Shown: positions 7,412-21,914 of the stretch, piece by piece
Layout: every line of letters begins with the position of its first letter
Numbering within the stretch: the stretch's first letter is position 1
Virus record (IMG/VR): IMGVR_UViG_3300043357_000064
Span: 64,001 to 88,991 of that record
Length of the DNA: 24,991 nucleotides
From: a virus
Reading direction: 5' to 3' (one strand)
Position numbers and translations under genes: made by a program
The notes under the pieces: model-generated
Told to the model about the DNA's origin: nothing
Databases searched by the model: none
What the model saw: only the letters and a program-made list of their open reading frames with translations

Positions 7412-7755
7412 GACGCCGCCCTGCCGGTGCCGTGGCAGTGCTCGCACGGATCGCCGAGAGTCCGGCTCGTCAGCGTGATCGTCCGCGACGAACCCGGCTG
7501 CCAGCGCAGGTATCCCTTGCGCTGCAACTCCCGCAGACGGTAGGTGACCGTCGACAACTGGATCGACTGGGCGTCCATGATCTGCCGGAGTGACGGCGGA
7601 TAGCCGTTGGCCTCGATGAAGGCACGGATCATGTCGAGCGTTTCGACCTGGACCGGCGTCGGCGCGGCGTCCAGCCGTCCGCGTTCGGCCCGCCGGACAC
7701 CGACGATGATGTCGTGCTCAACCTGGCGGGCTACGTCCAGCTTCGGCGGGGTCAC
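7408..7755 (-). CDS. LexA-N-like winged-helix protein
   Basis: A 115-aa protein from GTG 7755. After a 30-residue basic lead, residues 32-95 (PTPVQVETLDMIRAFIEANGYPPSLRQI, then LSTVTYRLRELQRKGYLRW) match the LexA DNA-binding domain, where 'GYPPS.REI' and 'L..L..KG.i' are hallmarks. The LexA protease domain (cleavage site, Ser-Lys dyad) is absent. The C-terminus has a CEHCHGTG knuckle. It may bind SOS-type operators without being self-cleavable. Confidence 0.78.
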   Translation of the reverse strand: MTPPKLDVARQVEHDIIVGVRRAERGRLDAAPTPVQVETLDMIRAFIEANGYPPSLRQIMDAQSIQLSTVTYRLRELQRKGYLRWQPGSSRTITLTSRTLGDPCEHCHGTGRAAS

Positions 7756-7961
7756 GACTCACCACCGGAGAGCAGTGCACGAACCTCGGACAGCCGGAAC
7801 CTTGCATGCCCACCAGGAGTCCGGATGCAGCCGATACGGTCCTGCTTCGCCCACCGGCTGACAGTCTTCGGATCACAGCGGAAAATGGCGGCCACCTCGG
7901 CGGGTGTCAGCAGCCGTTCGGTGCCGGCGGCCAGGGCCTCGATCAGCTTGTCGTCGGTCAT
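7752..7961 (-). CDS. BldC-like (MerR-type) DNA-binding protein
   Basis: A 69-aa protein. Residues 17-66 read LLTPAEVAAIFRCDPKTVSRWAKQDRIGCIRTPGGHARF then RLSEVRALL, nearly the consensus of the actinobacterial BldC family of one-domain MerR-like winged helices ('LLTP.EVA.lF.VDPKTVtRWA..Gki...RTpGGHRRy'). BldC binds direct repeats cooperatively and controls development in Streptomyces; phage copies could act as excisionase or regulator. ATG 7961, 4-nt overlaps on both sides. Confidence 0.9.
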   Translation of the reverse strand: MTDDKLIEALAAGTERLLTPAEVAAIFRCDPKTVSRWAKQDRIGCIRTPGGHARFRLSEVRALLSGGES

Positions 7962-15372: not shown

Positions 15373-15899
15373 GCCGCTACCGCCTCAGGGGCGAAGAACG
15401 CGTGCAGAACATCGGCGGAAAGGTCACGGACTCGAGTGACGCCATCGGTGACCATCTGTTCGGCGAGCGCGTCCCAGTTGACGCCGTGCTCCGCCAGGAT
15501 GCTCGCGTTGAAGGTGTACGACGACGCGATCGATCGGCACTGTTCGACGGTCAGGTCACCGGTACGGCCCCAGTCGAGGCCGTTGTAGGTGAACCGACCG
15601 GAGAGCGCGCGCTCCAGGCGATCGGCTGCGGTTAGTTGGTTCCGGCGGCGAGCCGAGTTCCGGGCGCCGACCTTCCGGCCAGTCGTCTCGGCCTGCACCG
15701 ATGGGCGAACCGGAGAAACCCGGATCCGGCCGAGGTGGAGGCGAACCCAGTTCCGGAGCAGCGCGAACGCCACGTCCTTGAGTTGCTCGGTCGTCATGTT
15801 TTCGAGCACCTTGCCGGCGATATCGCCGGGATCGGACAGGCCGGTCTCGTCGGCGATGCGCTCAACCTCGGCCGCAAGATCGAAATCGTCGGCCGTCAT
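15369..15899 (-). CDS. Hypothetical early protein
   Basis: A 176-aa, mostly helical protein: DDFDLAAEVERIADETGLSDPGDIAGKVLENM, LLRNWVRLHLGRIRVSP, a basic patch GRKVGARNSARRRNQLTAADRLERAL, then LDWGRTGDLTVEQCRSIASSY. The basic patch suggests DNA or RNA contact. No family recognised. ATG 15899, ATGA overlaps on both sides; third gene of the early transcript. Confidence 0.7.
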   Translation of the reverse strand: MTADDFDLAAEVERIADETGLSDPGDIAGKVLENMTTEQLKDVAFALLRNWVRLHLGRIRVSPVRPSVQAETTGRKVGARNSARRRNQLTAADRLERALSGRFTYNGLDWGRTGDLTVEQCRSIASSYTFNASILAEHGVNWDALAEQMVTDGVTRVRDLSADVLHAFFAPEAVAA

Positions 15900-16132
15900 G
15901 CTGCACGACCCGCTGCACTCATCGAACGATTCGAAGACTTGGCGGCTTGCGCCTTGGCGGACCGGGCCTTGATGAAGCGTTCAACCTCGGTGTCGGCAAC
16001 GCGCGGGCGCGGGCGCTTGCCGGTGCCGACGTTGGTCCAGTCGAGTTCTTCCGCCCAGATCAGTTCGCGGACGGACTGGACATGAATCGCGAGGCGACAG
16101 GCCACCTCGTCGAGTTTGAGCATCTGCGTCAT
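15896..16132 (-). CDS. Excisionase-like helix-turn-helix protein
   Basis: A 78-aa protein, second gene of the early operon. LKLDEVACRLAIHVQSVRELIWAEELDWTNVGTGKRPRPRVADTEVERFI is the pattern of small MerR/Xis-type winged helices ('yl...evA..l.vs...v..li..g.l....vG....r.rv....l..fi'). Xis proteins bind and bend attachment-site DNA so the integrase excises the prophage; the size and place opposite the integrase fit that role. A plain repressor role cannot be excluded. The last 20 residues are Ala/Ser-rich. Confidence 0.76.
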   Translation of the reverse strand: MTQMLKLDEVACRLAIHVQSVRELIWAEELDWTNVGTGKRPRPRVADTEVERFIKARSAKAQAAKSSNRSMSAAGRAA

Positions 16133-16383
16133 GACGTTGCTCCTTCCGGCCATAGCGCGTCGACAGTGGATTCGAGGGTTCGAGCGGCGGCGCGGGCCTG
16201 CGGCAGCAGCGGACTGGTCTTGCCTTTGATCCAGCGGTTGACCGTGTTCCGGTCGACCTTCATCAGGTCGGCCCGCTCCTGCTCGTTGAATGCGCCTTTG
16301 ATTGCGCACAACTCGATGAACAGGTCTTTTGCCAGCGGAACGGTCGTCAGTGCTGCATTGGAATCGCGTCTTGCTCCAACCAT
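16129..16383 (-). CDS. Cro-like HTH regulator, first gene of the leftward early operon
   Basis: An 84-aa protein. Residues 30-63 (GAFNEQERADLMKVDRNTVNRWIKGKTSPLLPQ) form an XRE-type helix-turn-helix. It is read away from the repressor gene across a 235-bp operator region, the place of Cro in lambda-like switches. ATG 16383 is preferred because TACATT lies six bases upstream and TTGTGC 17 bases before that, giving a leaderless transcript; no SD is present. The start codon lies inside a 9-bp palindrome and another copy of the half-site lies in the fifth-to-eighth codon region, so the protein or the repressor probably controls this promoter. Confidence 0.82.
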   Translation of the reverse strand: MVGARRDSNAALTTVPLAKDLFIELCAIKGAFNEQERADLMKVDRNTVNRWIKGKTSPLLPQARAAARTLESTVDALWPEGATS

Positions 16384-16418
16384 GCAGCAAATGTAGATGC
16401 TGCATGATTGCCGCACAA
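16381..16418 (-). promoter_or_regulatory. Leftward early promoter with overlapping palindromic operator
   Basis: On the minus strand: -35 TTGTGC (16418-16413), 17-nt spacer, -10 TACATT (16395-16390), then six bases to ATG 16383. The inverted repeat CATGCAGCA (16381-16389) / TGCTGCATG (16398-16406), with an 8-bp centre, covers the -10 and the start codon, so a bound dimer would block transcription. The half-site ATGCAGCA also occurs at 16553-16560 and, inverted, at 16351-16358. Confidence 0.78.
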
Positions 16419-16551
16419 GGACCGTTGACGCGTTGCACCCGTTCGGATGAATCGCAAGCAGTCGCAAGGACCGGTGCGCGGAGAGAAAACTCCAGAAGCT
16501 GCAGCGGCGCAAGAATGACGAGTTGATTTTGCAAGTTGCATCTGACCTGCG

Positions 16552-16618
16552 GATGCAGCATCAATGTCGCATACCGTTGTCTATGCTCGTGACATCAATG
16601 TCGCGTACAGTCGGCGTT
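16552..16618 (+). promoter_or_regulatory. Operator and -10 region of the repressor gene
   Basis: Contains GATGCAGCATC (16552-16562), a palindrome with the same half-site as the leftward operator, two direct copies of CATCAATGTCGC (16559-16570 and 16593-16604, 34 bp apart), the second inside the palindrome GACAT-CA-ATGTC (16591-16602), and TACAGT (16606-16611) as -10, seven bases before GTG 16619. No good -35 is seen, as expected for a promoter helped by a bound regulator. Confidence 0.65.
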
Positions 16619-17017
16619 GTGCGAACTGCTGCCAGCCCGCCGAACGACTGGGCGCGCCTCATCGACGATCTGGTCAGAAGACTCGGATCGATCAAGAAGC
16701 TTGTCGACGTCACCGGATTCGACCGCAACACCATCCGGCGCTGGCGGACGGGCGAATCGGCGAACGTCACGGCCGAAACGATCAGGATCCTCGCCGATGG
16801 CACGGGCATCGACTACGACGAAGCATCCCGTGCCGCACTCGGCGCACAGCAGCAGATGCGCGCCGATGCCGACGCGGTCGTCCGCAGAATCGAAGAGTCG
16901 GACGCATCAGACGCGACGAAGCGGGACCTCATCGACCTGGTCCGCGACAAGCGCCGCGAGTCGGAGGCTTCGATTCTGCGAGATGTCGACGTATTCCTGA
17001 GGACGCGGACGACCTAG
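16619..17017 (+). CDS. Immunity repressor-like HTH protein
   Basis: A 132-aa protein. Residues 7-65 contain DWARLIDDLVRRLGSIKKLVDVTGFDRNTIRRWRTGESANVTAETIRILADGTGI, an XRE/CI-type HTH with recognition helix near DRNTIRRW. The second half (QQQMRADADAVVRRIEESDASDATKRDLIDLVRDKRRE) is a long charged helix for oligomerisation; there is no LexA/CI protease domain, so induction must differ from lambda. The start is uncertain: GTG 16619 fits a leaderless transcript from TACAGT; ATG 16598 would add seven residues but lies upstream of that -10. Neither has an SD. Divergence from the Cro-like gene and adjacency to the integrase (9 bp) support a lysogeny repressor. Confidence 0.8.
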   Translation: MRTAASPPNDWARLIDDLVRRLGSIKKLVDVTGFDRNTIRRWRTGESANVTAETIRILADGTGIDYDEASRAALGAQQQMRADADAVVRRIEESDASDATKRDLIDLVRDKRRESEASILRDVDVFLRTRTT

Positions 17018-17026
17018 GAACCGCCG

Positions 17027-18217
17027 ATGCCCTGGGTGCGCAAACTTCCGTCCGGCCTATGGGCCGCGACCGTCCGTCTACCGACCGGTAAAAAGATCAC
17101 GAGGAGCTTCCCGCTCAAGGGATCCGCCGACAAGTGGGCCAACTCCCAAGTCGAGGGCCTCCGCAAAGGCGACTGGATCGACCCGCGCGCCGGAGAACTG
17201 TCGATCACCGACTGGTACGAGCGATGTAGAGACTCACGCCACCTGGAGAAGGCCAGCCGGGCACGCGACGAATCCCACTGGCGCCGACACGTCGAGCCGC
17301 AGTGGGCGGACGTCCCGATCGGTGCCGTCCTAAAGACCGACGTGTCCGCATGGGTCGTACGGATGCAGCAGAAGGACAAGCTCGGTGCGGCGACGATCGA
17401 AGCGGCAGTCGGCGTCCTGCGTGGACTCCTCGAGCAGGCGGTCGACGCGAAGCTGATCCACGCGAACCCAGTCCGCGGCGTGAGCGTTCCGCGACGTGAC
17501 GCCCATGTCGATCGCGTGCTCGGCCCCGATGAAGCCGATGCCCTCCTCGATGCCCTGGAGCGGCACAACCCGAAATACCCGGCTGCTCGACTCATGTGTG
17601 AGCTGATGCTCGATACAGGGATGCGATGGGAAGAGGTCGCCGCAGTCGACACTGACCACATCGAGCAGCGCCGCAAACTGATTCACGTCGGCCCGGTCAT
17701 GGAACGGGACGGAACGGTCCGCCCGTATCCGAAGAGTCCGGCCGGCGAACGGCCTCTCCCGGTTGGGGATGACCTTTGGCCGCAGTTGTGGAAGCTCGTT
17801 GGGACCGCCAAGCGAGGCGGTCTGCTTTTCACGGCACCGCAGGGCGGCTCGCTGCTCTACCCGACGTGGCGGTCGCGAGTCTGGCTGCCCGCGATCCACG
17901 GCCGCGTCGAGTACATCCGACGCCAGGGCCACAAGGCGAAGGACGCGATGCCCGGCGCCGGATTGGTGGATCCACAACCGACACCGCACGATCTCCGACA
18001 CACCTACGGAACCCGCCTCGCGGACGCCGGCGTGCCACCGCACGAGATGATGCGGCTGATGGGTCACGAACATCTGACATCGCTGGAGCGCTATCTGCAC
18101 GCGGGCGAGGCGCGGTTCGACAACGCACGCGAGGCGATCAGGAAAGCGAAGATTCCGCGACAGGGAACGCAGTCCGGCTCATCAAAAGCTGCTGGCTCAC
18201 CGGCGGCTCACGGCTAG
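17027..18217 (+). CDS. int: Tyrosine integrase
   Basis: A 396-aa site-specific recombinase. The N-terminus (PWVRKLPSGLWAATVRLPTGKK, residues 2-23) is a three-strand arm-binding domain; residues about 55-150 are the helical core-binding domain; the catalytic domain follows with Arg200 (DTGMRWEEV), His321 and Arg324 (TPHDLRHTYGT), His347 (LMGHEH) and nucleophile Tyr356 (LERYLHA). All key residues are present. It cuts and joins DNA at the att core, here the tRNA-Pro 3' fragment 57 bp downstream. The start has AGGAA eight bases upstream. The 3' end of the gene contains one pair of GGCTCAC arm-type repeats, so gene and att site overlap. It is likely co-transcribed with the repressor. Confidence 0.96.
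   Translation: MPWVRKLPSGLWAATVRLPTGKKITRSFPLKGSADKWANSQVEGLRKGDWIDPRAGELSITDWYERCRDSRHLEKASRARDESHWRRHVEPQWADVPIGAVLKTDVSAWVVRMQQKDKLGAATIEAAVGVLRGLLEQAVDAKLIHANPVRGVSVPRRDAHVDRVLGPDEADALLDALERHNPKYPAARLMCELMLDTGMRWEEVAAVDTDHIEQRRKLIHVGPVMERDGTVRPYPKSPAGERPLPVGDDLWPQLWKLVGTAKRGGLLFTAPQGGSLLYPTWRSRVWLPAIHGRVEYIRRQGHKAKDAMPGAGLVDPQPTPHDLRHTYGTRLADAGVPPHEMMRLMGHEHLTSLERYLHAGEARFDNAREAIRKAKIPRQGTQSGSSKAAGSPAAHG
18194..18213 (+). repeat. Paired GGCTCAC repeat, likely integrase arm site (int side)
   Basis: GGCTCAC occurs at 18194-18200 and 18205-18211, one helical turn (11 bp) apart, inside the last codons of int. The 20-bp unit matches 18425-18444 at 18 of 20 positions in the same orientation. 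Paired short direct repeats on both sides of the core are the usual layout of tyrosine-integrase arm sites. Confidence 0.65.
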
Positions 18218-18232
18218 TCGGGAAGATCCAAA

Positions 18233-18267
18233 AAGGGCCAGGTCAGATTGTCTCTGGCCTGGCCCTT
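18233..18267 (-). terminator. Strong bidirectional-type terminator beside att
   Basis: A 15-bp stem (18233-18247 with 18253-18267, one G-U pair) with a 5-nt loop TTGTC. On the minus strand it is followed by TTTTT (18230-18234 region), the classic intrinsic form, which suits the end of a tRNA-Pro transcript; from the plus side it would also end the repressor-int transcript. Confidence 0.85.
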
Positions 18268-18273
18268 CGCCTG

Positions 18274-18318
18274 TCGGGGTGGCCGGATTCGAACCGACGA
18301 CCTCTTCGTCCCGAACGA
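18274..18318 (-). other. attP: attachment core: 3' part of a tRNA-Pro(CGG) gene
   Basis: On the minus strand this reads as tRNA-Pro from the anticodon loop to the discriminator base: loop TTCGGGA (anticodon CGG, 18309-18315), 3' anticodon strand CGAAG, variable AGGTC, T-arm GTCGG-TTCGAAT-CCGGC, acceptor strand CACCCCG and A18274. The 5' anticodon strand fails to pair at 18319, where the likeness to tRNA ends, and no 5' half follows. Such a fragment next to an integrase is the usual att core of elements that insert in tRNA genes and restore them. Flanking arm-type repeats on both sides indicate attP instead of attL or attR. The exact crossover cannot be read here. Confidence 0.88.
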
Positions 18319-18424
18319 TGAAACGCCGGTGGTGTCTAGCTGCACCGATGCAGCAGAGCCCTGGTCAGATGTGCTGATTTGGCAAGTCGACGTAAGCCCT
18401 AACATGCCTTCGTATCAAGATCAC

Positions 18425-18444
18425 GGCTCACCAGTGGCTCACGG
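18425..18444 (+). repeat. Paired GGCTCAC repeat, likely integrase arm site (distal side)
   Basis: GGCTCAC at 18425-18431 and 18436-18442, again 11 bp apart, 107 bp beyond the core and overlapping the stop of the small membrane-protein gene. It differs from the int-side unit at only two positions of 20. If real, it is the second arm of attP. Confidence 0.62.
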
Positions 18445-19829: not shown

Positions 19830-20051
19830 CTAGAACGCGAACTCGCCCGCGCTGGCACCGTTCACAAACGCTGTGAACTCGTCGCCCGTGAACACGAGGA
19901 CTGCGGCGTCCGGGTTCTTGCTGTCGCGCATGGCGATGTGGCCGTCGACCGGGGCGATCTCGACGCAGTTGCCGGACTCGCCGGAGTAGCTGGACTTGAC
20001 CCAGGCCGCCGTGTCGGTGTCGACGGTGATGCCCTTGGTTTCGATGATCAC
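19830..20051 (-). CDS. DUF397 protein
   Basis: A 73-aa protein with the DUF397 signature: AAWVKSSYSGESGNCVEIA (about 14-32), then HIAMRDSKNPDAAVLVFTGDEFTAFV. In actinomycetes DUF397 proteins are usually encoded beside an XRE-type HTH regulator and act as its small partner in development and antibiotic control (the WhiJ/AbaA-like sets). GTG 20051 has AAGGAG seven bases upstream and overlaps the preceding stop. Here the XRE-TPR gene is two small genes upstream, so the pair is kept but split into two transcription units. Stop is TAG. Confidence 0.93.
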   Translation of the reverse strand: MIIETKGITVDTDTAAWVKSSYSGESGNCVEIAPVDGHIAMRDSKNPDAAVLVFTGDEFTAFVNGASAGEFAF

Positions 20052-20708: not shown

Positions 20709-21914
20709 CTAGGCGTGAACGCCGATCGATTCGGCGAGCTGCTCCGCGTCGCGGCGTGTTGTCGCAGGTCCGGCAGTGACGAGGCGTGCCGCCATGTCCC
20801 GTGCGGCGGGCGAGAACTCGACCGTCTCGGCGGAGATCGCATGGCCTTTCGTCAGCAGGTGCAGCGTCGCCTCAGGCGAGCCGGACATGTCGGCAGCACG
20901 GGCGAGTTCGATGTGATGCCGGGCCCGCCGGTCCGTTGACGGGATCGTCGCCGGATCCAGTGTCGCGGCCCGCCGCTGAGCGTCGTCGGTCTGGCCGAGG
21001 TCGACGGCGATCATCACGCTGTACACGTCGGCGAGCACGGATCCGACCCGCGTCCACGGGTGCACGTAGCCGGGCGGCAGGGCACGGCGGATGACTTCGT
21101 TCGCAGACTCCCAGTCGGCCCACGCCCCCTGGTCGCCGGAGCGGGCCTTGGTCAGCGCCGCGTTGAGGTGGATGTCGGCGAGCATCGCCGCGTACTCGGT
21201 CGCACCCTCTGCCACTCGCGGCTCGACCAGTCCTCGGGCTACCCGGAGTTGGTCGAGGGCCTCGTCGGCCCGGCCGCCGGCACGGAGGAGATGTGCGGCG
21301 TACCAGATGGAGGAGGCGATGGCGAGCGGGTCGTCGGCGTCCATGGCGGCCGTCATCCCGCGGTCGACGGTGAGCCAGCACAGTTCGCGGTCACCGTGCC
21401 ACGCCAGATACGCCTGGGCGACGTGATACGCCTGGGCGAGCACCGAGAGAGCCTCACGCTTTTCCGTGCCCTGCAGAAGGCGTACAGAGCGTTGCGCCTC
21501 GAGGAGTAGCCCGGGGACGAGTCGGCCGGTTTCGGAGTGCTGGCGCTCCGAGGTGTGCCACGTCTGCCACGCCGAATCCAGGAGCCCTCGCAGGTATGCG
21601 GGGCTCGACGGTTCACCGGAGACTTCGATCGGCCAACTCGTCAACGCCTTGCGGACCTCCGGGATCGCTTCATGGGTCGGGCGATCCCCGAACGTGATCT
21701 TCATGGACTCGCCGAACAGTTCGGTGAGGTCACGGATGTGCAGGTACGGTGCGATCCGCTGAGCAACCCGCAAGGTCAAGCCGCGGCGGCCGTTCTCGAC
21801 GAACTTGATGGTCGAGGCGGACACGTCAGACAGGGTCGCGAGTTGTTCGCGGGTGAGGCCGGCGAGTCGTCGCAAGCGTTCGACGCGGGCACCAACGGTA
21901 TGGACAACGTCCAC
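20709..21914 (-). CDS. XRE-type HTH regulator with TPR-like C-terminal domain
   Basis: A 401-aa protein. GTG 21914 is fixed by GGAGG (21921-21925) six bases upstream; the frame is open further but lacks another start signal. Residues 5-60 (HTVGARVERLRRLAGLTREQLATLSDVSASTIKFVENGRRGLTLRVAQRIAPYL) form the XRE HTH. From about residue 120 to the end come helix pairs typical of TPR repeats (WHTSERQHSETGRLVPGLLLEAQ; LAQAYHVAQAYLAW; ASSIWYAAHLLRAGGRADEALDQL; DVYSVMIAVDLGQTDDAQRRAATL). Such regulators are chromosomal in actinomycetes, paired with DUF397 proteins; the TPR part is thought to receive a signal or partner. Stop is TAG. Confidence 0.92.
   Translation of the reverse strand: MDVVHTVGARVERLRRLAGLTREQLATLSDVSASTIKFVENGRRGLTLRVAQRIAPYLHIRDLTELFGESMKITFGDRPTHEAIPEVRKALTSWPIEVSGEPSSPAYLRGLLDSAWQTWHTSERQHSETGRLVPGLLLEAQRSVRLLQGTEKREALSVLAQAYHVAQAYLAWHGDRELCWLTVDRGMTAAMDADDPLAIASSIWYAAHLLRAGGRADEALDQLRVARGLVEPRVAEGATEYAAMLADIHLNAALTKARSGDQGAWADWESANEVIRRALPPGYVHPWTRVGSVLADVYSVMIAVDLGQTDDAQRRAATLDPATIPSTDRRARHHIELARAADMSGSPEATLHLLTKGHAISAETVEFSPAARDMAARLVTAGPATTRRDAEQLAESIGVHA

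Follow-up and report, generated by a model that had tools for sequence, protein, structure and literature searches.

The window analysed here, a 24,991-nucleotide (nt) stretch of DNA, comprises bases 64001–88991 of an 88,991-bp virus record and carries a tyrosine integrase gene (int) followed by part of a proline tRNA gene lying between two repeat units (Table 1). The first-pass annotation had described a 45-bp 3′ fragment of tRNA-Pro(CGG) beginning 57 bp past the int stop codon (18215–18217), flanked on both sides by units that are identical at 18 of 20 positions, share the same orientation and each hold two GGCTCAC boxes 11 bp apart; all of these elements were recovered. It had also considered the 5′ half of the tRNA to be absent, which stands because no tRNA gene was detected in the 24,991-nt window. 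The int-side arm unit sits inside the last int codons, in a C-terminal tail that extends past the point at which alignments to the closest relatives end (residues 375–379).

Table 1 Features of the integration locus and associated genes in the window
Feature	Position	Strand	Details
Candidate excisionase, HTH_17	7752–7961	−	69 aa; PF12728, E = 1.7e-12, above cut-off
Second excisionase candidate	15896–16132	−	phrog_66 excisionase, 5.9e-5
HTH regulator directly upstream of int	16598–17017	+	phrog_638 transcriptional regulator, 1.4e-7
int, tyrosine integrase	17027–18217	+	396 aa; PF00589, E = 3.6e-20; phrog_1 integrase, 1.7e-52
Predicted arm-binding domain	int residues 1–46		predicted beta-beta-beta-alpha; N-terminal 60 aa modelled
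Int-side arm unit	18194–18213	+	GGCTCACCGGCGGCTCACGG; GGCTCAC boxes 18194–18200 and 18205–18211, 11-bp period
Intrinsic terminator	18230–18267	−	15-nt arms and T5; inverted repeat 18233–18247/18253–18267
attP core, tRNA-Pro(CGG) 3′ half	18274–18318	−	45 bp, anticodon stem to discriminator base
Conserved distal-arm flank	18401–18422		AACATGCC...TATCAAGATC; common to relatives
Distal arm unit	18425–18444	+	GGCTCACCAGTGGCTCACGG; GGCTCAC boxes 18425–18431 and 18436–18442, 11-bp period

The helix–turn–helix (HTH) gene directly upstream of int probably shares an operon with it. Two small genes are candidate excisionases, and the assignment is weak for the HTH_17 protein. The motif ATGCAGCA occurs eight times in the genome against 1.8 expected, with four copies in or near the divergent intergenic region (16351–16560) that separates HTH genes ahead of int, another in int itself (17363) and a further copy inside attP (18348); this could be an operator for a repressor, with contact to attP as well. 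Near attP, the window also encodes a DUF397 protein (19830–20051, minus strand) and a 401-aa XRE-type regulator (20709–21914, minus strand), a pair of a kind common in actinobacterial chromosomes.

The record as a whole is that of a tailed phage, encoding terminase, portal, head protease and tape measure proteins as well as a DnaB-like helicase and a RecT-like protein. The same virion genes set it apart from actinomycete integrative elements of the AICE type, which are conjugative and carry none, and this identity was rejected. Relatives of the portal protein (51–58% identical) are present in 8 of 301 Micromonosporaceae genomes, and no DNA-level relatives were found among phage records. Two TnpB-like proteins with OrfB_IS605 and Cas12f1-like TNB domains are encoded elsewhere in the genome (40904–42058, minus strand; 54995–56212, plus strand), one of them adjoining structural genes, and a 473-aa protein without a family match, in the structural region, has internal repeats at about genome positions 34770–35180.

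The first 127 bases of the record are repeated exactly at its end, and once one copy is removed a methyltransferase-like open reading frame (ORF) of 352 codons spans the join; the part of this ORF within the window matches N6_N4_Mtase (5.8e-22). The assembly is therefore circular, with a length of about 88,864 bp, and no chromosomal flank or branch is present in the 88,991 bp of the record. The repeat length resembles an assembler k-mer overlap, so that circularity is established for the assembly and not necessarily for the molecule. The earlier proposal of a free phage genome, an excised circle or a tandem-array junction is supported by these data and narrowed by the terminal repeat and the ORF across the join. 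Beyond the site there is no 5′ tRNA half; the far arm follows, and after it the remainder of the circle.

The arm units are distinctive within this genome. Only these two copies occur in the window at up to three mismatches (0.02 expected from shuffles), and exact GGCTCAC-N4-GGCTCAC is found nowhere else in all 89 kb. When the flanks of 2,000 random places in the genome were compared, 13 matched at 18 or more of 20 positions, of which three were attP itself and ten fell in one repetitive stretch at 34.8–35.2 kb. A weaker third box may lie outside each arm unit, at 18183 and 18481 on the minus-strand reading (GATGAGCC and GATGAGTC).

A search of 84,980 species' genomes located the inner 41 bp of the core (18275–18315) exactly in 111 stretches, all of them in Micromonosporaceae and most of them intact tRNA-Pro(CGG) genes, the host match for which the first-pass annotation had proposed a search. 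The genera comprise Micromonospora, Salinispora, Plantactinospora, Asanoa, Virgisporangium, Dactylosporangium and Planosporangium. At intact tRNA genes the identity extends a further three bases 5′ of the 41-bp core (TCG, in the anticodon stem) and stops at 18318, the phage sequence there being CATCG and that of the tRNA CTTCG; 3′ of the discriminator base it continues for one to four bases, depending on the host, which makes two to five bases past the 41-bp core. A single intact tRNA-Pro(cgg) results when the 5′ half from the host is joined to the 3′ half from the phage, and none results from the reciprocal junction. A 36-bp core pattern had no match among viral contigs; a shorter one matched only an AT-rich contig carrying a tRNA-Ala, which was set aside as irrelevant. 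Rfam returned no credible match. Separately, the tRNA-Pro(CGG) gene of Micromonosporaceae is an insertion hot spot, with several core copies on one scaffold in Micromonospora rubida and Salinispora mooreana, and the terminator after it varies between related species, as if elements had repeatedly swapped the 3′ half together with its terminator.

A less expected feature of this attP is its terminator, which is positioned to follow the rebuilt tRNA. The hairpin starts about 7 bp past the tRNA 3′ end and folds at −25 to −29 kcal/mol. Every one of the 92 intact tRNA-Pro genes whose flank was long enough reaches −18 or below across the corresponding 60 nt, compared with 59 of 92 for a control stretch, and by eye the host terminators are of several unrelated sequences. 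A terminator within attP, at the place where host genes fold strongly, indicates that the phage supplies its own terminator for the rebuilt tRNA.

We then considered related integrases. Back-translated patterns yielded no close relatives of int in genome contigs or viral contigs, and no such int was present in ten viral contigs with related portals, but a six-frame search of Micromonosporaceae found nearest integrases that are 50–57% identical. Three of these are followed by the 3′ half of tRNA-Val(CAC). One, about 50–54% identical to the phage int, belongs to a 29-kb element (G302) integrated at tRNA-Val(CAC), and its two ends can be compared directly with the phage arms. On the tRNA side, an intact tRNA-Val (157236–157308) is followed by a terminator and, 74 bp past the tRNA, by the boxes ATGAGTC-N4-GTGAGTC (at 157382), a pair that corresponds to the int-side arm unit of the phage. 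At the far end lie int, the boxes GTGAGTC-N4-ATGAGTC (at 186400) and, 127 bp further on, the tRNA 3′ copy. The distal arm of the phage, which reads GTGAGCC-N4-GTGAGCC-GT-GATCTTGATA on the tRNA strand, is homologous to this second pair and the flank that follows it, GATCTTGATA. Thus the two arms, which the first-pass annotation had placed at opposite ends once integrated, are seen in that arrangement in G302.

The distal arm-to-core spacing is the same in the phage and its relatives (127–130 nt). A pattern built on this arm (RTGAGYC-N4-RTGAGYC-N2-GATCTTGA) occurs in 5 of 355 Micromonosporaceae genomes, adjoining a 50–51% identical int in four and an int C-terminus in the fifth, and the reversed control pattern in none. 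This arm homology at constant spacing is the strongest evidence that the repeats would be functional arm sites.

Paired boxes are also found at occupied tRNA-Pro(CGG) sites. In eight other elements integrated there, the box pair that follows the tRNA and the one preceding the distal core match each other at 16–19 of 20 positions (the shuffle maximum was 15–16 of 20). The boxes are 11–13 bp apart and lie about 50–125 bp after the tRNA half, with a matching pair about 105–125 bp before the distal core copy. Exact boxes of at least nine bases occur in 12 of 92 sites (over the 80 bp concerned), against 0–1 in each of four control stretches. Box sequence differs by element type (TACAGCA, TGAGTGAC, TTGGGGCA and GTCAGC); we found no related element with GGCTCAC-type boxes at tRNA-Pro(CGG) and no integrated copy of this phage. 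A 13.5-kb element (G115:C59, 19153–32733) occupies tRNA-Arg(ACG) and has paired TGTAGC boxes at each of its ends. The nearest relative of the phage int, 57% identical to it, is encoded in this element, apparently as a second integrase; the tRNA-Arg(ACG) site was not assigned to this protein, since what appears by eye to be another integrase adjoins the tRNA and the boxes are TGTAGC.

The integrase itself offers a candidate for arm recognition. A whole-protein structure model built from two sequences was poor (pLDDT 45), so the N-terminal domain was modelled alone, with pLDDT of about 86–90 over residues 1–40. Its best fold match in the PDB is the GCC-box domain of AtERF1 (1gcc, AP2/ERF; TM 0.67, rmsd 1.1), a resemblance that is suggestive only, given E = 0.18. 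No integrase arm domain is among the structural matches listed for this domain, and no Pfam arm domain matches int. The closest solved sequence is the 'Int protein' of PDB 6emy/6en0 (E of about 1e-14, residues 90–371), which we take to be the Tn1549 integrase. Unlike the phage int, a Tn1549-type integrase is a transposon enzyme without a tRNA target, and the alignment starts at residue 90, leaving the arm-binding domain uncovered. With its modelled N-terminal domain, int together with the arms would fit a lambda-like, heterobivalent integrase.

An adjacent tyrosine integrase, a core that rebuilds the tRNA and paired arm repeats on both sides are thus found together, and the core match, combined with the homologous box pairs that an integrated relative carries one at each end, points to the intact attP of a lambda-like tyrosine integrase, as had been proposed from the window. 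We are highly confident that this is the unrecombined attP of a temperate, tailed Micromonosporaceae phage in a circular genome, either excised or permuted in the virion. We infer that the phage integrates and excises. The Int N-terminal domain would contact the box pairs in both arms, and the core-binding and catalytic domains the core, and strand exchange would presumably take place within the anticodon loop of the tRNA-Pro(CGG) gene in the host. Integration would produce an intact, terminated tRNA gene beside int, made up of the host 5′ half, the phage 3′ half and the phage terminator, and the host's own 3′ half would remain as a fragment at the far end of the element. A tRNA-dependent lysogeny, with a short non-rebuilding core and a phage-borne tRNA (PMC10865867), does not apply, as the 45-bp core rebuilds the tRNA and the window has no tRNA gene.

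This attP architecture has already been described in pACPL, pSAM2, CrimD, L5 and Giles. In the AICE pACPL of Actinoplanes sp. SE50/110, two 21-nt repeats that differ at two positions flank a 43-nt segment identical to the 3′ end of a proline tRNA, and these repeats were likened to the arm-type sites of pSAM2 (PMC3364876). pACPL resembles the phage in its Micromonosporaceae host, proline tRNA, flanking repeats and adjacent int; it differs in being a 13.6-kb conjugative element and in its boxes, GTCACCCAGTTAGT(T/C)AC(C/T)CAG. In the Cluster K1 mycobacteriophage CrimD, the core lies between two pairs of putative arm-type sites of 11 bp each, and a putative terminator separates core and arm; Giles and L5 are named as having direct pairs (PMC3203893). 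The direct pairs of Giles and L5 are as in our phage, whereas CrimD has a tmRNA core and two arm pairs that are mutually inverted.

Three other explanations were weighed. The phage might be an extrachromosomal phage-plasmid whose attP is a relic used rarely or never, and its circular assembly and the lack of an observed integrated copy would agree with this. We consider it very improbable: no ParA-type ATPase was found, the int reading frame and the arms are intact, and the site is conserved with integrated relatives. Slightly further down the scale, and very unlikely in our judgement, the site could be the junction between tandem prophage copies and the circle a collapsed tandem repeat. Such an array would yield the same attP-like junction and circular contig, and the multiple core copies on single scaffolds noted above suggest that elements accumulate at tRNA-Pro(CGG); nevertheless, the record contains no chromosomal branch and a single circle is the simpler reading. 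That the tRNA piece was captured or is a terminator mimic unrelated to integration, the repeats being regulatory operators of int, can practically be dismissed, for although one of the two box pairs falls within the 3′ end of int, the pairs flank the core at the spacings of relatives and lie at opposite ends of integrated elements, and the core spans exactly the anticodon stem to the discriminator base.

Taking the site as an intact attP, comparison with the Val-type elements separates what is shared from what differs. The G302 element and the phage have in common homologous arm boxes, the conserved flank, the spacing and the post-tRNA terminator, and the tRNA 3′ half of G302 likewise starts in the anticodon stem. 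Less expectedly, they differ in target, tRNA-Pro(CGG) as opposed to tRNA-Val(CAC) in the relatives, and in the position of int, which lies downstream of the tRNA 3′ end in the phage and upstream of the 3′ half in the Val elements. The phage int would therefore adjoin the rebuilt tRNA, whereas the Val-type int adjoins the truncated copy. Accordingly, the earlier expectation that the int side of an integrated element borders the intact tRNA holds for the polarity of this phage but fails as a general rule.

Some integrase subfamilies prefer crossover at the anticodon loop. Around the presumed crossover, the tRNA-Pro gene reads GCGCTTCG-TTCGGGA-CGAAGAGGTC and the tRNA-Val gene GCGCTTCG-TTCACAC-CGAAGAGGTC, so that the two differ in the anticodon loop only, with the same stem and flank. 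attP and attB become identical from nt 30 onward in Pro, where the loop begins at nt 33, and from nt 27 or 31 onward in Val, where it begins at nt 31. Tentatively, and with rather less than even confidence, we suggest that target choice in this integrase clade may be modular, changing with the 7-nt overlap (the anticodon loop) and the captured 3′ half. The arms and the anticodon-stem core sites (GCGCTTCG and CGAAGAGGTC) would be kept while an element switches between Val and Pro, and int would be able to sit on either side of the site.

For a phage known from metagenomic sequence, this defines both the family of the host and the exact place of insertion. Its compact int–attP cassette is of the type used in integration vectors, and few such tools exist for Micromonosporaceae. 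In the comparison with Val-type elements, the arm boxes and how far they lie from the core stay constant and the tRNA and the side occupied by int vary, which makes the retargeting of integrases between tRNA genes directly testable.
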